Positions 1,060 to 53,350 of a stretch of DNA of 64,000 nt are shown piece by piece. The notes under the pieces are model-generated. The model saw only the letters and a list, made by a program, of their open reading frames with translations, did not search any database and had not been told where the DNA came from. Position 1 is the first letter of the stretch. Each line of letters begins with the position of its first letter. The DNA is from Litoditis marina. Taxonomy: Eukaryota > Nematoda > Chromadorea > Rhabditida > Rhabditidae. The DNA lies in the NCBI GenBank assembly GCA_964036275.1, contig OZ038436.1:8237864-8301863 (forward strand), given 5' to 3'. The position numbers were made by a program, and so were the translations under genes.

Positions 1060-1497
1060 AGTTGGTCTGGAATTGGTTTGGAATCGAAACTTTCAAATTA
1101 TTAAAATTGTCAATGTTTTGTTATGTCCCAACTTGTTCCAGTGTATTTGTTGTAGAGTTTTACTAACTTTTCGAACAGAACAAAATAAATCGGAATAGAT
1201 TTGGTCCAGAATCGATCGGAAACGGTTTGAAATGGAATTGAATTGAATCGGGTTTTTAGAATTGGTCAACCACTCTGCACTACAGACAAGATAACCGCAA
1301 TCGTGTGTTGCAGTCTCTCTTTATAGCAGCGTTGGTCCTGGTGATTCTGATAACTTTCTTTTGTAATGAGCACATTATGCAAAAACGTTGTATAGCCACA
1401 GTGAAAAAAATGATACTGACAAGGATTCCACTTTGAAATACTAGACTTTAATTGTTACCTATAAGTTAGTTTTGTGTTACAGCGTTGGTCACAAATT
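1060..1497. repeat. segmental duplication block, left part (paralogous to 30,320-30,752)
   Basis: This stretch is nearly identical to 30,320-30,752. The similarity stops at AATT 1494-1497, where the DIRS element starts, and resumes at 7465 on its other side. The homology therefore defines the insertion boundaries. No gene is seen; there are GAATTG-rich runs and a motif GGTCAACCACTCTGCACTAC shared by both copies. Confidence 0.8.
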
Positions 1498-1756
1498 ATA
1501 ATGACTGCGAAATTACTATCATCAAGATGCTTTGTTCCGTGAAAGAAGCTTTGTTCTCACTTAAAAGAAAAAAGACTTAAACAAAAAAGGAGAAAGAACG
1601 AGTCTCGTTTTTTTACTTAAGTCGATTTTTTGAAAAATTCGAATACCCTACGCGGGCAATTGGACCTGCCGCGAACGCTCTGCGCATCAGGCTACCGTAA
1701 TCTCCCTGCGTCCAATCTCGAGTCAACGAAATTTTTCGAAAAAAACTTCAGATGTT
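1498..1756 (+). repeat. left inverted terminal repeat of DIRS element
   Basis: Reverse-complementary to 7166-7429, from ATAATGACTGCG at the outer edge to CTTCAGATGTT at the inner edge. The only clear difference is the length of an A-run before the inner edge. In DIRS elements the left repeat carries the promoter for the genomic RNA. A 5' leader of about 220 bp follows before the Gag start. Confidence 0.93.
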
Positions 1757-1979: not shown

Positions 1980-3254
1980 ATGTCGGACTCAGACTCCTCG
2001 AATCGGGTCGACAGACGTTCGCGTTCTCCAGTGAACAGAAGAAGACGTTCGTATTCTCCTAGGGAGGATCGTCATAGAAGACACGCCAGCAGGGACAGAC
2101 GCCGTTCTAGGTAGGCTTCCGGTATATTGTCGTTAAGAATAATTTGAATATTCTTTTTTATCTTTCGATATTTGCAATGGTGTGGTATTTATCGGTATGG
2201 GCAACTTTTGCGATTCCGGTTGGCAACCTAGGCTCAAAAGTATCTGAAAAGGGTTAGACTTGGATAAAGGTTGTCTGTTGTTTGTAGATCTAGGTCACGA
2301 TCTTCGTCGCGTCGATCTTCCCGTCGCTCTTCTTCCTCTAGGGACCGATCTCGGTCTCGCTCAAGATCGCGGTCTCGCTCCAGGAGAAGAAGACGTCGGT
2401 TCCAGAGGGATCGTTCTCGATCGGCAGACGAGGTTCCACAGCCAGAGGGGGAAGAAGAAGAGATGGAAGAAGTTGAAGTTCCGAGGAGCCCCGGGTTGGA
2501 CAACTACGTTATTCCAAAGAAGTCGGATTTCGCAGCAGGTGAGATTCGTTTACACTCGAGATTTGGGGCTCTTGGAATTAGCTTTTGGAATCAAAAAGAT
2601 CCCGGAATATGACTAACGAAGGGAGTCATTGCTAACGATTGTTTCCTTCCCTCGCGCTCTGTTCTTTATACCGTCCCCTTAGTTGGGGTAGTTTATGTAC
2701 AGATGATGTATTTATTCGTATCATTAATTACAGCGGTCGGAGCAGTTCCGGCTCCCCCCAAGTTAACCAAGAAGGAAGTCCGGTCCAGAGTTGAAGTGGA
2801 CGAGGACGCCAAGAAGAGATTCCAAACCTGGGCAGGCGGGAAATTCATCCCGACCACGGATCGGAAGAAGATTCTAAAGGATCTACCACTGATAACGTGA
2901 GTTTCCTTGTTAGTTTGCCGACTCGGGGGTACATTATTATATTAAGGCGTCACGTAAAGATAGGTTTACCGTATCAGGCAGAGGGTACGGAAGGGCTACG
3001 AGTGGGTCTCATCAAAGCCAATCATATGATTGAGTGCTATATTAACTGGCGTTCATTTACAGATTGACGCTGGCACTGCCTCCTGTGCTGGATGAGGAAT
3101 TGAAAGGACAGATCAAGAAGAATATCGACTTGGTCATGACGGAAGCTGAGTTCGACTCAATCTACGATGGCCTGCTGACGGCTCTCAACGTTCTGGAACT
3201 CGTGAGAAAGGTTAGGCATTGTGTGTTCTATCTCTTCTCTTTATTTTATTAAAG

Positions 3255-3291
<37 letters not shown>

Positions 3292-6200
3292 GAAAGGTTA
3301 GGCATTGTGGTCATTGCAGTTGGGATCAGATGATAAAGGAGCCCCGTTCGGCGAGGATGTCACTGGGTATTTCAATGTGCTTGGAGAGATCTTGTCAGCT
3401 TCTCTCAAGGATGCACTAGTCGCCAAACGGTGCCAAACACTCAAGTAAGTTTTCATGTTCAGCCAATACGTACGTTAGCAGAACGGAGCGGCTATTCAGG
3501 CATTGGGTTATGTCCTCCGGACGACTTAGACCGGGTTAGGACGAGGTCATGGCCGGTTATAAAGTGTAAGGATCCTCATTGTTAGCGTTTTCAAACGTGT
3601 CTCTTTGCAGGGCTCTCGGAGTAGCGCCACAGCAAGCCATGCCAGGCTATAAGAAGCTGGGGCTGGATGCTGACTCCTTCGTGGGAGGCGAGAGAGACGA
3701 GGAGATTCGTCCAGCGCTCTTTGGCAAGGCTCTGTTGGAACAGCTGGGGGCAGAGGATTCGGCAACCCGAAAGGCCCTGGCAAAGCTCCGGAAACCGGCC
3801 ACATCGTTCCAGACTCCTCCAAAGTATAGGAGGCCGCCGCCTCCCAAGGCTCGAGCTTCCTATACCCCAAGAAGGTACGATGAAGTTTATGTTACTCCTT
3901 TGAAATGTTCGACTCGAATAGCAGGTCGCATTAGCGACTTTGCGGAAAGATGGGAGGCTCTGACCTCCGATCCTCTAATTTTAAAGTGGGTTAAAGGATA
4001 CACTTTGGGATTCGTTGGGGAACCCCCTATATTACAAAGGGTAACAACATTATCTGACACCCCTCGCAACCTTTTTGAGGAGCTGGAAAAGTTAGTACTC
4101 AAAGGGGTGATCGAGCGAGTCCCTTCGGACTCCAAGGTGTTTCTAGCGACCCTTTTTGGAATTCCAAAGAAAGATGGATCCACTTGATTGATATTCAATC
4201 TGAAACCGCTAAACACCTATTTGGACATTGAACATTTTAAAATGGAAGGGTTGCACCTAGTGCCTGACCTGGTGTTCAAACAAGACTTTTGCTGTAAGCT
4301 AGACATGTCTGATGCGTATTTCGCAGTGAATATTGATTTATCAGATAGATCCTACCTTTCTTTTTCCTGGAAACAAGAAATCTATAGATTCACTTGCCTT
4401 CCGTTTGGGTTAGCTACAGCGCCGTTTGTTTACACAAAACTCCTGACAGTACTGGCGGAGTTTCTAAGGAGTAAGGGCATAAGGCTTATTCATTACCTGG
4501 ATGATTGGGCGCTCTTTGCGACCACGCCAGAGATACTGAAGGAGCACATAGGTATGGCGCTCACTCTTTTTGCCGAGGTCGGACTACGCGTGAACATGGA
4601 AAAATCTGTCACGACACCTTCACAAGAAATGGAATTCTTGGGGCTAACATTGAACTCAGCCAAGGCTACTTTTGCAGTACCACACAAGAAGAAATTAGAC
4701 ATCAAGTCTCTAGCCACTACTCTACTAGCACAGAAAACGGTAGTAGCAAAGGACCTTGTCGCTTTTTTGGGCAAAACTAATTTCATTACCTTAGCGGTGC
4801 CGGAGGCACCGCTGAAACTTCGTTATCTTCAACGTGACTTGAACTTGGTAGTAGTACACGATATGCCAGATTCATACCAGCGTTGGTTGAGTCTAAGTGA
4901 CGCAGCCAGAGCTGAGATGGAGTGGTGGCGCGTTAACATTGAGCGTCTAGGAGAAACTGAGTGGGCTCGCTTTTCTCCCGACGTCATAATTACTTCTGAT
5001 GCTTCTAAGTTGGGTTGGGGAGCGGTCTGCTGTGGTAAGCGTATTGGTGGTCGCTGGACGTCAGCGGAATCAAGATTACATATCAACCTCTTAGAGTTGA
5101 TGGCTTCGTTTTTCGCTCTAAAAATTTTTGCGAGCAACTGGAAAAATCTGAATGTGTTGTTAGAGCTAGATAATACTTCAGCGGTAGCTTATATTCGTAA
5201 TATGGGAGGTACAAAATTGCCTTCCCTTTCGGATCTAGCGGCCGATCTTCATGACTGGGCAAGAGGGCGGTTCATCCGCGTGTTTGCTACTTATAGGCCG
5301 GGGGCCATCAACCAAATTGCAGATTGGGAATCGCGTAACACGATCAGGGAACGCGCTGAATTCAGTTTAGACACGGCCGTAGCAACCCGTACTTTTGATA
5401 TTTTCGGTAAGCCGGAAGTGGACCTGTTTGCTACTAGGCTTAACTGTAAGATTGCTAAATTTATCTCGTTTTTCCCAGATCCCGACTCCTGGAGGGTCGA
5501 CGCCTTCGCGCAAAATTGGTCGGGCCTCTACGGTTACGCATTTCCACCGTTCAATCAGATCACAAGAGTGATCCGAAAATCGGTGGAGGACGGGGCCACA
5601 GTGGTTCTAGTAACCCCAGCCTGGCCAACACAACCTTGGTTCCCTCTGGCTCTCCAATGGGCGGCCGAGCCTCCCAGAGTCCTGCCGCGGTTGAAGGACA
5701 TGGTAGTGGATCCGGAAGGCGTGCCGCATCCACTTCTGGCCCAGATAAATTTTCGGCTAATAGTATGGAAAATCTCACCGACATCTGGGAGGCCCAGGGC
5801 CTGTCACGGGATTCCATCGACACGCTCATGGCTAGCTGGGCTCCGTCCACTGTGAAACAACACAATTCGGTATTGAGAGCTTGGACGGCATTTGCACGTT
5901 CTCAAAAATTACCGCAAATTCCATCTTCGGTGTCGTTATGCAATTTCCTATCTCATTTAGGCCGCAAAGGGTTGTCCTATTCCTCGGTGGCCTCTCACAG
6001 GGCAGCGCTAGTTACTTTTTTCGAACAGGTGAGGCACGGCAGCCTCGGTTCAGAGGTTTTTGTGACCCGATTCATGAAGGGTCAGTTTCGAAAGAATCCA
6101 CCCAAACCAAAATATGCGGAAACATGGGATGTCAAAGTAGTTTTGGAGTACATTAAGGCGCAGGGTCAGAATAAGACCCTGTCCTTGCGTTCCCTGACAC

Positions 6201-7043
6201 TCAAACTTGTTTTTCTACTAGCAATTTGCTCACCAAAAAGGGTTTCGGAATTGGCTGCACTGTCAATCAATCATTTGCAACGTTCCTCCGAGAAGTGGAC
6301 CTTTTTTCTAAACTACAGGAACAAGAACCGGAGTGCAGGATCGGCACACACCGCGCAGTACGAGGCCTTCTTGGAAAACCCATTGCTATGTCCGGTTCTT
6401 ACTCTTTCGGATTATCTGAAAGCTACAGAAAAATTCCGAAACGGACAAGAAAAACTGTTGTTATCGTTTGCTAGGTTCTCTCCAGTTCAAGCCAGCACGG
6501 TAGCTCGCTGGATTAAGGAGATTCTGTCTGCGTCGGGAGTTGATGGGCATTTTAAAGCGCACTCTACGAGGTCGGCGAGTACTTCGAAAGCACTGAATTC
6601 GGGTGCTGCCATTACGGACATTTTGAGTGCGGCTTGTTGGTCTGAAAAAAGTGATACCTTTTTCAGATTTTATAATAAGGAGGTGGCAAAGCCTTCTTTC
6701 CAAGCACACGTCCTATCAAGGTGATTTAAATTAGCATCTTGATGATAGTAATTTCGCAGTCATTATAATTGAATATTATGCAATATTTATTGACGTATAA
6801 TATCTATTATAATGACTGCGAAATTACTATCATATCCCACCCGGACCCGCCTCTGTTTTTTCTGTCCTAGGAAAGATAGGCCTGGGTGTTCGCTCTTATT
6901 ATTCTTGTTTTTTTCACACTGCACGTTTCAGTTCGGACTCTGGTCGGGACCCTCGTTCGCAGAATTCGTCTTCCCGTGGCGGTCGTGGAGGTCACCCTCG
7001 TGGTCGAGGTCGCGGTGGCCAAGCTCGTGGCACCGGCAGATAG
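1980..7043 (+). CDS. gag: spliced DIRS Gag protein, RS-rich N-terminus and RGG C-terminus (397 aa)
   Basis: Seven exons join in phase: 1980-2110, 2288-2538, 2734-2896, 3063-3210, 3320-3444, 3611-3874 and 6932-7043. All introns are GT-AG, with phases 2, 1, 2, 0, 2, 2, and the sum is 1,194 nt including TAG. Exons 1-2 encode an Arg/Ser-dipeptide domain (roughly residues 13-92) like those of SR splicing factors, followed by an acidic run (EGEEEEMEE). The middle is a helical region, probably the capsid-like part. Exon 7 encodes an RGG/RG box ending in GTGR. The last intron (3875-6931) contains all of RT-RNase H, recombinase and internal region, so splicing would make Gag while retention lets exon 6 run into RT. 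CTCGTTCTAG just before the ATG may be a cis or trans splice acceptor. Role inferred: binding of element RNA. Exon joins are predictions. Confidence 0.82.
3205..3309 (+). repeat. 19-bp duplication flanking a TA microsatellite in Gag intron 4
   Basis: The 19 bases AGAAAGGTTAGGCATTGTG occur at 3205-3223 and again at 3291-3309, with a (TA)n run between them. The repeat spans the exon 4 donor. Without the inserted 86 bp the intron would be only 23 nt, below any usual minimum. Confidence 0.75.
3611..5855 (+). CDS. pol: DIRS Pol: reverse transcriptase, RNase H and C-terminal DIRS domain, with in-frame TGA
   Basis: Gag exon 6 stays open past its donor into the RT N-terminal region (AGRISDFAERWEALT) up to a TGA at 4185-4187, then continues in the same frame from 4188 to 5855 (555 codons). 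The TGA sits just after DGST and before LIFNLKPLN, where RT block 1 normally has a conserved Arg. A CGA-to-TGA change is the simplest explanation; readthrough is the alternative. Counting from 4188, the RT catalytic YLDD is at residues 103-106. RNase H acidic residues are D271, E303, D328 and D379 (SDAS, LLELM, ELDN, ADW). The C-terminal block has VDLFATR and FPPF (about 452), the region assigned in DIRS elements to a Dam-like methyltransferase domain; FPPF would stand for the DPPY motif. Reverse transcription would copy element RNA in this scheme. Confidence 0.88.
5657..6724 (+). CDS. DIRS tyrosine recombinase (YR, 355 aa from first ATG)
   Basis: This frame overlaps the end of pol by about 200 nt, in the -1 frame relative to it. 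It is open from 5516, but the first in-frame ATG is 5657; a second at 5764 (MENLTD) starts closer to the folded part. The catalytic set is complete: Arg in SPKRVSEL (codon at 6239), HSTR near the C-terminus, W in ACWSEK and a Tyr in FFRFYNKEV. The N-terminal half (TLMASWAPSTVKQHNSVL) has the SAM-like core-binding fold typical of phage-integrase relatives. Predicted role: integrate a circular double-stranded copy through the AATT overlap. It ends only 8 bp before the internal complementary region. How it is translated (own mRNA, frameshift or reinitiation) is not visible. Confidence 0.92.
   Translation: MGGRASQSPAAVEGHGSGSGRRAASTSGPDKFSANSMENLTDIWEAQGLSRDSIDTLMASWAPSTVKQHNSVLRAWTAFARSQKLPQIPSSVSLCNFLSHLGRKGLSYSSVASHRAALVTFFEQVRHGSLGSEVFVTRFMKGQFRKNPPKPKYAETWDVKVVLEYIKAQGQNKTLSLRSLTLKLVFLLAICSPKRVSELAALSINHLQRSSEKWTFFLNYRNKNRSAGSAHTAQYEAFLENPLLCPVLTLSDYLKATEKFRNGQEKLLLSFARFSPVQASTVARWIKEILSASGVDGHFKAHSTRSASTSKALNSGAAITDILSAACWSEKSDTFFRFYNKEVAKPSFQAHVLSR
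6733..6833. repeat. internal complementary region (ICR) of DIRS element
   Basis: 6733-6770 is the reverse complement of the left end, and 6767-6833 is the reverse complement of the right end including its extension. The two halves meet at a single AATT (6767-6770), the same four bases found at both element borders. In the DIRS-1 model this region templates completion and circular joining of the ends. Confidence 0.93.
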
Positions 7044-7115: not shown

Positions 7116-7121
7116 AATAAA
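7116..7121 (+). promoter_or_regulatory. candidate polyadenylation signal AATAAA
   Basis: AATAAA lies 73 nt after the Gag stop and before the right ITR, well placed to end the spliced Gag transcript. A full-length genomic RNA would have to extend past it into the right repeat. Confidence 0.5.
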
Positions 7122-7165: not shown

Positions 7166-7464
7166 AACATCTGAAGTTTTTTTTTCGAAAAATTTCGTTG
7201 ACTCGAGATTGGACGCAGGGAGATTACGGTAGCCTGATGCGCAGGGCGTTCGCGGCAGGTCCAATTGCCCGCGTAGGGTATTCGAATTTTTCAAAAAATC
7301 GACTTAAGTAAAAAAACGAGACTCGTTCTTTCTCCTTTTTTGTTTAAGTCTTTTTTCTTTTAAGTGAGAACAAAGCTTCTTTCACGGAACAAAGCATCTT
7401 GATGATAGTAATTTCGCAGTCATTATAATAGATATTATACGTCAATAAATATTGCATAATATTC
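7166..7464 (+). repeat. right inverted terminal repeat plus 35-bp extension
   Basis: 7166-7429 mirrors the left repeat. 7430-7464 is extra sequence absent from the left repeat but present, inverted, in the internal region. A short right-hand extension is also a feature of Dictyostelium DIRS-1. Confidence 0.92.
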
Positions 7465-7756
7465 AATTGCCATGCAAAAGTGCACTGAAGAGGGTTTTGG
7501 GTCGAAATCATGGCCTACTTACAAGGTAGCATCGAAATAGACTACAAAGTACAAAACAGGTTCTAGACCAGCATGTTTCATTCACAAATAAAAATTAACG
7601 AGACACTTGGTTTTTAGTTGTTAACTCAGAACTTGTCATTTTCAGACAAAAGTGCTGCAAAGTGTACTTCTTTATTAACACAGCTGTAGGTTTCAGGGTT
7701 TTCATAAAACAGCTAGAGGCTGATATAGGTTGGTGCAAGCAGCATCAGAGAGTATT

Positions 7757-9500
7757 AGTAGAAAGTGGGGGAACCAACGAATGTGTGAGTTGTGTTTGGT
7801 TCGACCTCTATATCAGCAAAAAGTGAACAATACAAATTGATGTGATACTGTAGCGGAAGTATTTCGCAAAAATAGAACAATACAAATGTTGCACAATGGT
7901 TTACAACGCACGCATGTCGTCAAAGTACACATGAAATACCCTTCAGCAATTTCCGAAATATCATGCGTGCGTTGTGAACCATTGTGCAACATTTGTATTG
8001 TTCTATTTTTGCAGAATACTACAGTATCACAGCAATTTGTATTGTTCACTTATTGCTGATATCGAGGTCGAACCAAACACAACTCACACATTTGTTGGTT
8101 CCCCCACTTTTTACTAATTGTCCTTTTTTTGCTAGTTGTACTCCTACAACTTCCTGTTTCACCTATTCACCGAGTGGATCTTGTGAACTCATGAATAGAA
8201 ATCTCAGTTTTGTGTGTGCAAGAAGCCAAATGTAGACCTTAAAATTTAGGTTTTGGCGCAAATTGGAGCCCGCGCCTGGCGCCAACGCAAAATAATATTT
8301 TTTTACTCTCCAATTTACTCAACATGTGATAACCATTAACTGTACCAAATTTCGAACGATTACAGTGACGCTGTCGCGAGTTTAGGTTTTGGCGCCAATT
8401 GATGCCAATTGACCCCGCGCCCGACGCCAACGCAAAATAATCATTTTTTACTTATCAATTCACTCAAAATGTGATAAACATTAACTGTACCAAATTTTGA
8501 ACGATTACAGTGACGCTGTCGCGAGTTTAGGTTTTGGCGCCAATTGATGCCAATTGGCGCCCGCGCCTGGCGCCAACGCAGAAGAGTCATTTTTCACTTA
8601 TAGATTTACTCATCATGTAATAACCATAAACTGTACCAAATTTCGAACGATTCCAGTGACGCTGTCGCGAGTTTAGGTTTTGGCGCCAATTGGTGCAAAT
8701 TAGCGCCCGCGCCCGGCGCCAACGCAAAAAAAACGTTTTTTACCTATAAATTTACTCAGCATGTGATAACAATTAACTGTACCAAATTTCGAACGATTCC
8801 AGTGACGCTGTCGCGAGTTTAGGTTTTGGCGCCAATTGGTGCAAATTGGCGCCCGCGCCCGGCGCCAACGCAAAAAAATCACTGTTCTATATATAAATTT
8901 ACTCAGCATGTGATAACAGTTAACTGTACCAAATTTCAAACGATTCCAGTGACGCTGTCGCGAGTTTAGATTTTGTTCAGGGCGCCTATTGGCGGCCGCA
9001 CCGGGCGCCAATGACAATATATGGTTTTCATATTTGGCGCGACGAGCTAACTTTTGCCATAGAATAGATGTTTCAAATTTCAGCCAAATTGATTAAGTAG
9101 TTTTTACACTACGATGCGGACAGAATTCCGTGAGGGAGGAGGGAGGAGGGACGAGGGACGAATTACGGCGGAACTTTTCAACAACGACACGAAATCATAA
9201 CTCAGACGAAAATGGTCCGATTTGGTTGAAATTTTCACACAATGTTCAATTCGTGATTCTCTATAGTCGCCATTTTCTATTTGCCAGCGGTTGAGAGAGT
9301 GTGTAGGTCAATGGTACGCAGACTGGCTGGCCCCTCGCCAAACCTCGCCCCTTACAAAATCGATGGTACGGTGTCCACAACGGTTCGACAAATCCTATAC
9401 CGTTCTCTCTTTTTAGTTTTCGAAAAAAAGGAAAAAAAAATTGGTAATTAAAAGAAAAAAACGAGTCCGCAATGGCCAAACCAAAGACAACTCACGCGCG
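7757..9500 (+). mobile_element. composite non-autonomous element, copy 1 (palindromic head, GGCGCC body, hairpin tail)
   Basis: It begins AGTAAAAAGTGGGGGAACC (here with one change), has a 360-bp palindromic head (7757-8113) ending in the inverse CCCCCACTTTTTACT, then a GGCGCC-rich body, and ends ...CACGCGCG. ATT flanks both sides. Two more copies (31,327-33,144; 60,132-62,084) share the ends, and 18,634-18,636 is the empty site. No transposase frame is present; the short frames in the head are by-products of the palindrome. Confidence 0.7.
8236..8985. repeat. tandem GGCGCC minisatellite, unit about 146 bp
   Basis: The landmark GAGTTTAGGTTTTGGCGCC recurs with TTTAG at 8381, 8526, 8672, 8818 and 8965, giving periods of 145-147 bp. 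Each unit contains several palindromic GGCGCC sites and the phrase TGACGCTGTCGCGAG. It forms the body of composite element copy 1; copies 2 and 3 have more diverged units. Confidence 0.88.
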
Positions 9501-51898: not shown

Positions 51899-52130
51899 TT
51901 ACGAACGAAGTATCAGGCTAATTACGAATCTGAACATCTCGATTTGCAGGAATATTACTATATTCAGAAATATTGACAAACATTGAACCATTTCATCTGT
52001 GAATCGTTCCTCTTTGAATAGACTATGCGACATTATGGTGCGGTAAAACCACTTGCCAACAAAAAACTGAAAAGAGGATGAACCATTCAGAGTGAAGATT
52101 GGAAAAATGCCGCTGCGCGGCCAGGGAAAA
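51899..52130 (-). pseudogene. additional exon copy of the 50-51 kb gene
   Basis: The minus frame keeps VGKWFYRTIMSHSLFKEERF and FTDEMVQCL, which the 50.5 kb copy has only after a frameshift and the 55.9 kb copy has with a stop. It runs directly into the 202-bp satellite at 52,100. Confidence 0.45.
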
Positions 52131-53095
52131 TTGCCACTGTCCCCGAGGTGAAGTAGGGAACGGGCATCGCTGCGCGGCAAGATTGGAAAAGAGCCGCTGC
52201 GCGGCCAGGGAAAATTGTCACTGTCCCCGAAGTAAAGTAGGGAACGGCATCGCTGCGCGGCCATGGGTAATGTAAGGAATGGCATCGCTGCGCGGCAAGA
52301 TTGGAAAAATGCCGCTGCGCGGCCAGGGAAAATTGCCACTGTCCCCGAGGTGAAGTAGGGAACGGGCATCGCTGCGCGGCAAGATTGGAAAAGGGCCGCT
52401 GCGCGGCCAGGGAAAATTGTCACTGTCCCCGAAGTAAAGTAGGGAACGGCATCGCTGCGCGGCCATGGGTAATGTAAGGAATGGCATCGCTGCGCGGCAA
52501 GATTGGAAAAATGCCGCTGCGCGGCCAGGGAAAATTGCCACTGTCCCCGAGGTGAAGTAGGGAACGGGCATCGCTGCGCGGCAAGATTGGAAAAGAGCCG
52601 CTGCGCGGCCAGGGAAAATTGTCACTGTCCCCGAAGTAAAGTAGGGAACGGCATCGCTGCGCGGCCATGGGTAATGTAAGGAATGGCATCGCTGCGCGGC
52701 AAGATTGGAAAAATGCCGCTGCGCGGCCAGGGAAAATTGCCACTGTCCCCGAGGTGAAGTAGGGAACGGGCATCGCTGCGCGGCAAGATTGGAAAAGGGC
52801 CGCTGCGCGGCCAGGGAAAATTGTCACTGTCCCCGAAGTAAAGTAGGGAACGGCATCGCTGCGCGGCCATGGGTAATGTAAGGAATGGCATCGCTGCGCG
52901 GCAAGATTGGAAAAATGCCGCTGCGCGGCCAGGGAAAATTGCCACTGTCCCCGAGGTGAAGTAGGGAACGGGCATCGCTGCGCGGCAAGATTGGAAAAGG
53001 GCCGCTGCGCGGCCAGGGAAATTGCCACTGTCCCCGAAGTAAAGTAGGGAACGGGCATCGCTGCGCGGCAAGATTGGAAAAGGGCCGCGGCCATG
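52100..53095. repeat. GC-rich satellite, 202-bp unit, about five copies
   Basis: Identical landmarks recur every 202 bp (for example CATGGGTAATG at 52,262, 52,464, 52,666 and 52,868). Each unit contains several GCTGCGCGGC words separated by AAGATTGGAAAA and CACTGTCCCCGA. Copies are nearly identical. Long minus-strand frames exist only because the unit lacks stops; they switch frame from unit to unit (202 is not a multiple of 3). Confidence 0.93.
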
Positions 53096-53109
53096 GGTAA
53101 TGTATTTAT

Positions 53110-53350
53110 TGGCCCAGGATTATGTATAGCCTAAGCCTTGTTATCTGGTAAGCATACAGTGAACGAGCCAGCCATTGAAGTGGAACGAGCTCTTCTAAGA
53201 ATCATGGTTAGCCTAAGCCTAAGCCTTGTTATCTGGTAAAAATACAGTGAACGAGCCAGCCACTAAAGTGGAACGAGCCGAACCACTGAAGTGAAGCGAG
53301 CTTCTCTAGGAATGATGGCTAGCCTAAGCCCTTCAGGGCGCTTAGTAAAA
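53110..53350. repeat. two imperfect tandem units with GAACGAGCCAGCC
   Basis: Units of about 110 bp share AGCCTAAGCCTTGTTATCTG, ACAGTGAACGAGCCAGCC and GTGGAACGAGC. Sequence to 53,450 is still GC-rich and may be the edge of the same repeat cluster as the satellite. Confidence 0.65.

Follow-up and report, generated by a model that had tools for sequence, protein, structure and literature searches.

A DIRS1-like retrotransposon of Litoditis marina with a seven-exon gag gene and a putative splicing switch between Gag, Gag-Pol and recombinase

The window, a stretch of 64,000 nucleotides of Litoditis marina DNA, contains a whole DIRS1-like element of 5974 bp on the forward (+) strand, from position 1495 to position 7468. 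It is framed by two inverted terminal repeats (ITRs) of 251 nt, the left one at 1495-1745 (+) and the right one at 7179-7429 (-), which are 100% complementary to each other. A right extension follows at 7430-7468 (+) and is complementary to the right part of an internal complementary region (ICR) located at 6733-6833 (+). Within the ICR, residues 6733-6770 pair with 1494-1531 and residues 6767-6833 with 7402-7468, the two complementary parts overlapping at 6767-6770 (the circular junction). An AATAAA at 7116-7121 (+), ahead of the right ITR, is a possible poly(A) signal.

Between the repeats lies a Pol reading, 3875-5855 (+; stop at 5856-5858), with a reverse transcriptase domain at 4284-4652 (PF00078, 79.1 bits for a cut-off of 29.6), a weak RNase H match below the cut-off (PF17917, E=0.11) and a candidate Dam-like methyltransferase at 5376-5669 (PF05869, E=1.1e-5, 25.6 bits, below the cut-off of 28.1). 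PF05869 is also precomputed for a hookworm relative, P0002. Further on, a tyrosine recombinase (YR) is recognised by PF00589 (30.8 bits for a cut-off of 27.1), its domain covering about 6188-6676. The ITRs, the ICR with overlapping parts, the reverse transcriptase and the tyrosine recombinase are those of DIRS1-like elements, while gag departs from the usual description, which is not a strict definition, of one separate ORF. Direct LTRs and a DDE integrase, the marks of Ty1/copia, are replaced here by inverted repeats and a tyrosine recombinase. The element is a DIRS1-like retrotransposon which resembles copia in the predicted splicing out of pol, yet it is no member of Ty1/copia.

The gag gene starts with the ATG at 1980 and is divided into seven exons, all on the + strand: exon 1 (1980-2110, RS-rich), exon 2 (2288-2538, RS-rich and acidic), exon 3 (2734-2896, 163 nt in five families of copies), exon 4 (3063-3210, 148 or 154 nt across the five families), exon 5 (3320-3444, 125 nt in five families), exon 6 (3611-3874) and exon 7 (6932-7043), which encodes an RGG-rich tail and the stop codon. 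The introns run from GT to AG and the exons sum to 1194 nt, that is 397 codons plus the stop, with incoming phases of 2, 1, 2, 0, 2 and 2 for exons 2 to 7. The initial annotation had proposed this in-frame 397-aa Gag, a phase-2 join 3874/6932 and an RGG exon placed past the recombinase and the ICR. All three proposals are borne out: the join restores the frame exactly, and exon 7 begins beyond both the end of the YR at 6720 and the ICR, which is part of the last Gag intron. The 5' splice site of exon 6, AAG|GTACGA, is the proposed switch; its AG|GT is kept in seven families (in family I as judged by eye).

The assembly searched comprises 522 contigs with a total of 261.8 Mb. Queried with recombinase DNA it yielded 19 places, and with recombinase protein 42 matches. 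We studied 23 loci (the window, L020-L037 and L042-L045), which fall into seven families: A (window, L020), B (L021, L022), D (L023-L031), F (L032, L033), G (L034-L037, L044), H (L042, L043) and I (L045). The possible poly(A) signal is AATAAA or a variant in A, D and H and a variant in B; the same search matched none in F and G. One representative was taken from each of A, B, D, F and G, and in all five a complete Gag is readable as seven exons, the start of the D family Gag being taken from L024 since the gag 5' end of L023 has been replaced. These five Gags are 41-68% identical. The incoming phases of exons 3 to 7 are the same in all of them, G deviating at exon 2, and the last intron measures 3057-3094 nt. 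For exons 3 to 6, pS is 0.70-0.80, near saturation, and pN 0.19-0.41. Since five families so diverged share the seven-exon layout though their synonymous sites are near saturation, the layout is not due to chance. A spliced alignment, for which only the protein match and GT-AG introns counted, recovered these seven exons with their phases in L021. It went wrong in L023 and L032, where small spurious exons were picked and the join of exons 6 and 7 was overlooked, and the 3' gene models of these two loci and of family H were set by hand. Family H, the sixth, has the terminal exon and, in the same phase, the last intron. Some of its gag introns lie elsewhere, the shared ones being the intron after TLR/TLK and that at the Gag/Pol boundary.

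Several copies have peculiarities of their own. A 19-bp direct repeat of the window (3205-3223 and 3291-3309) includes the exon-4 donor and surrounds an AT-rich stretch of intron 4; in L020, an insertion in the same intron has moved exons 4 and 5 about 5.4 kb apart. L045 (G000:C1:18398300-18404400) is a distant DIRS copy from which most of Pol is gone, though it still has the gag exons, the end of the YR and the region of the ICR, and is perhaps a non-autonomous form. The 33-kb contig G000:C378 carries two neighbouring elements from different families, L022 and L033, and the single-base deletions of L022 sit in short runs and may be assembly errors.

The check on the frame of exon 7 called for by the initial annotation has come out in favour of this exon. 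In 17 of the 18 copies whose stretch between the ICR and the right ITR was translated, the AG acceptor, the phase-2 reading and the RG/RGG tail are intact; with L042 and L043, exon 7 is open in 19 of the 23 loci. In L022 it is broken by small deletions, it is absent from L030 and degenerate in L045, and in L044 it is beyond the fetched stretch, a 97% match being found about 5 kb further on. Its pS (0.46-0.93) exceeds its pN (0.23-0.49) in 10 of 10 family pairs, although these pairs are not independent. The acceptor of exon 7 in the window ranks only 15th among the AGs of the last intron, and that of the YR 14th, when scored with a matrix derived from gag introns 1 to 5. Such weak acceptors are of the type that regulated splicing would use, which is no proof of it. 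The case for exon 7, as read from the DNA, is one of conservation and not of splice-site strength, and we have little doubt that it is the terminal exon of Gag.

If the last intron is kept, Gag runs in frame into Pol. The window copy cannot make a full Gag-Pol because of an in-frame TGA at 4185-4187, but the reading is in frame in six families and stays open for 1023, 995, 991 and 1097 aa in L021, L023, L032 and L034, respectively. A search with Pol returned 1577 proteins at E<=0.001, and the closest named ones among the 120 listed are nematode proteins. One of these relatives, Aduo_001434 (965 aa) from Ancylostoma duodenale, a hookworm which is also a member of Rhabditida, has an RS-rich start, the same Gag core and Pol in one annotated chain, with 44% identity to the family G Gag over 223 aa. 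In five named nematode proteins examined by eye, the Gag/Pol boundary consists of Arg followed by Tyr, Leu or Cys, as a phase-2 AG|GT donor would encode. No Gag-only homologue was detected at E<=0.001 with either residues 85-397 or the five-family core as a query (about 8000 candidates scored for each), a negative weakened by gag introns and by length limits, that of the core query having left out the 965-aa Gag-Pol itself. A Pfam scan of two Gags gave only sub-cut-off matches to unrelated families. We consider that Gag-Pol is very probably produced through retention of the last intron. The initial annotation had anticipated a choice made by splicing between Gag, with the intron removed, and Gag-Pol, with the intron kept; the comparison across families and the hookworm protein support it.

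Two rival accounts must be weighed against this arrangement. Exon 7 could be a chance reading in the spacer between the ICR and the right ITR, with Gag ending elsewhere; its acceptor is indeed weak in the window, its junctions are predicted from DNA and, between A and B, its identity of 67% exceeds that of the flanks (56% and 53%) by a modest difference only. A chance reading would hardly be open and in phase at 19 of 23 loci in six families, nor show pS above pN in every pair, and we have rejected it as highly improbable. The RGG stretch was likewise rejected as a free ORF, for in five of six families it has no upstream ATG in frame (B has one), which also argues against a chance reading. As for Pol, the usual description of DIRS elements has gag and pol as ORFs of their own (PMC3266345 and PMC9210276, in the parts consulted), so that Pol might be a protein of its own, started inside the intron and never fused to Gag. 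This is very unlikely, since the boundary is free of stops in six of six families, the first ATG in the Pol frame comes 48-156 codons in, and the hookworm model is a fusion.

The recombinase had been regarded as content of the intron. It does lie there, but it is probably an alternative exon rather than mere intron content. The candidate YR exon, 5479-6720 (+), is 1242 nt long and in phase 2 on both sides, with TTTTTCCCAG|ATCC as acceptor and AAG|GTGATT as donor; if this donor were unused, translation would stop at the YR's own TGA (6722-6724). In an alignment of the last introns of A, B, D, F and G, 15 AGs are common to all five families; the one with the top score is at 5478, and among the GTs the best conserved one, 6721, lies at the YR stop. 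The exon-7 acceptor is absent from the top alignment rows listed, which means that its positions in the five families were not aligned with each other. The YR segment of A, D, F, G and H measures 1242 or 1245 nt, has phases 2/2 and joins exons 6 and 7 in frame and without stops; in B the YR is frame-broken. Family I has TAA in place of TGA as its YR stop, and its site, AG|GTAATT, is still a donor.

The YR frame overlaps that of Pol. When Pol codons were shuffled synonymously, the acceptor score was reached at the site in 3 of 2000 shuffles and anywhere in 150 codons in 9 of 2000, or in 12 and 20 of 2000, respectively, with A standing for A and B together; these figures concern an acceptor that had been spotted before being tested. 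The donor score was reached by 0 of 4000 shuffles. However, the conserved donor block GTGATTT adjoins the conserved ICR, so that part of its conservation may serve the latter. In six of six families the YR frame has no stop over the 95 or 96 codons that separate the acceptor from a conserved Met, and it closes within 4-19 codons upstream of the acceptor. Given the Pol protein, such an open stretch has a chance of 0.003-0.025 per family; it is therefore probably translated, the route being less sure. Family H provided a fair test, as its sequences were obtained only once the idea existed; it has the acceptor, the donor, the phases and the open frame. A cis-spliced alternative exon seems to us the reasonably probable status of the YR, and there is an even chance that its donor is joined to exon 7.

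Two other routes to the recombinase may be considered. With Gag and Gag-Pol made as proposed, the ribosome might slip from Pol by -1 frameshifting near 5459-5478, giving Gag-Pol-YR: the YR is in the -1 frame of Pol, it opens just before the site, and slippery heptamers occur there in A, B and H. However, D and G have none in the stretch, and the sole heptamer of F lies about 270 nt further on, where A has a second one too. Nor would slipping need the conserved AG, whose A is the third position of a Pro or Ser codon and whose acceptor score is reached at the site by 3 of 2000 synonymous shuffles, and we judge frameshifting unlikely. A recombinase with its own mRNA has a small chance of being true. 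It could arise by SL trans-splicing at 5478 or by internal initiation, for instance at the ATG of a conserved Met-Glu-Asp/Asn-Leu. SL1 is present in the host genome, the Met is kept in six of six families, and the first ATG past 5478 is in the YR frame in five of six (F is the exception). Yet in B and H this first ATG appears only beyond some 95 codons over which the YR frame is nonetheless open, with chances of 0.003 and 0.005, respectively.

Trans-splicing may operate at the start of gag. The 22-nt SL1 leader has 765 exact copies in the genome, the reversed control giving 0, which identifies the host as a nematode. Eleven exact copies at G000:C1:64508-90920 are mostly 1367 nt apart and so form a tandem array. 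In the window, a TAG ends 1 nt ahead of the gag ATG at 1980 and could serve as an SL trans-splice acceptor. Families A, B, D and F have a YAG 1-2 nt ahead of this ATG, which makes SL trans-splicing plausible in them; it is missing in G. There is no intronless copy among the fetched loci. When joined exons 4 to 7 were compared with the genome, no match extended more than 8 nt across a junction (0 of 8 for family A, 0 of 23 for family G). Introns are present in all the genomic copies seen, so the RNA that is copied appears to be unspliced, as the position of the ICR inside the last intron also requires. The lack of intronless copies is neutral on splicing itself and supports an unspliced template.

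We propose that a single 5' splice site, the one that closes Gag exon 6 (3874), drives the alternative expression of the element. Splicing from 3874 to 6932 would take out about 3 kb and yield Gag with its RGG tail. If the last intron were kept, Gag would continue in frame into RT-RNase H-MT, giving a Gag-Pol devoid of the RGG tail. Splicing from 3874 to 5479 would add the recombinase as an exon, read either to its own stop or in phase onto exon 7, to give Gag-YR(-RGG). The protein-coding RNAs would be transcripts stripped of introns 1 to 5, and the unspliced transcript, with the ICR retained, would be the template for copying. As the copied RNA must escape all splicing, the export or packaging of unspliced RNA would have to be controlled.

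This alternative-splicing explanation, taken as a whole, is likely to be correct. It builds on direct observations, namely the exon and phase anatomy, its conservation, the in-frame readings and the lack of intronless copies; the use of each junction, their ratio and SL trans-splicing just before the ATG are what we infer from them. RGG tails often bind RNA, hence we would ascribe an RNA-binding, nucleocapsid-like role to the tail encoded by exon 7. The chances seem evenly divided for the fuller version, in which one 5' splice site acts as a three-way switch between Gag-RGG, Gag-Pol and Gag-YR-RGG, with SL trans-splicing at the ATG, a nucleocapsid-like RGG exon and feedback by the RS domain as further components. 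If true, SL trans-splicing at the ATG would set the mRNAs apart from genomic RNA that stays unspliced, Gag and recombinase would share the RGG exon as a nucleocapsid-like tail that Gag-Pol lacks, and the splicing of Gag might be subject to feedback by Gag's own RS domain.

DIRS1-like elements are described with three ORFs, gag being uninterrupted and separate, in the consulted part of PMC3266345; three ORFs are also given for DIRS in that of PMC9210276. The element shares with the DIRS-1 type of the former source the ITRs, the ICR with its short overlap, the RT, a YR frame overlapping Pol and, as far as the sub-cut-off match goes, the Dam-like MT. Unlike that type, it has a gag that is interrupted by introns, continues into Pol and terminates past both YR and ICR. 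Introns or splicing are not mentioned in PMC3266345, PMC3783388 and PMC2685390, nor introns in PMC4157794, nor exons or splicing in PMC9210276. The LAP2alpha domains of TMPO and ZNF451, which derive from ORF1 (gag) of DIRS1-like elements, are encoded by a single large exon according to the portion of PMC4495291 consulted; Pfam found no LAP2alpha match in the two Gags scanned here. The literature searched describes no spliced DIRS gag, but the main older DIRS papers and Repbase fell outside the search and priority is not certain. With the same reservation, the view of the initial annotation that the layout is not a standard one agrees with the DIRS papers searched.

The closest analogue is Drosophila copia, where a 2950-nt splice leaves a Gag-only RNA that has lost almost the whole of pol (PMC3735527, consulted in part). 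In both cases a splice of about 3 kb deletes pol with a Gag RNA as the result, though here this is predicted from DNA. The two differ in that copia is a Ty1/copia LTR element. In the present element the 3' exon encodes a conserved RGG tail, another five introns interrupt gag, and the enzyme for integration may itself be an exon. In the plant Ty1/copia elements BARE1 and EVADE, a spliced Gag RNA exists beside the unspliced Gag-Pol RNA; 104 nt are removed in BARE1, with a stop just after, and splicing is coupled to early polyadenylation in EVADE (PMC3735527 and PMC8892269, relevant parts). No downstream coding exon is described for either in these parts, in contrast to exon 7 of the present element. 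The element is thus a DIRS1-like one with a predicted copia-like splicing, a Gag exon past everything else and a YR that is probably an exon itself; the finding of the initial annotation is right and was understated. The DIRS papers searched, in the parts consulted, leave unexplained how the overlapping Pol and YR frames are expressed and how Gag and enzymes are balanced. The model offers a testable answer, the Pol and YR frames being alternative exons of one gene. If it is true, a tyrosine-recombinase retrotransposon has arrived at a copia-like removal of pol, with the DNA-integrating enzyme itself an exon.

Some observations concern other sequences. Five distant YR matches with 23-24% identity and open frames of 297-368 aa (G000:C2:10637959, C1:15230740, C4:36396551, C4:14888205 and C4:23822585) perhaps represent another family of recombinase elements. 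In the window, a fold-back (7754-8118) with 100-nt arms that are 95% complementary and an inner pair of 59-nt arms lies just past the element. Tandem repeats of about 146 nt with GGCGCCAATTG motifs occupy 8245-8975. On the minus strand, the region 51899-53130 has open frames of repeated peptide (NFPWPRSG, SCRAAMP and the like), this repeat being a minisatellite open in more than one frame.
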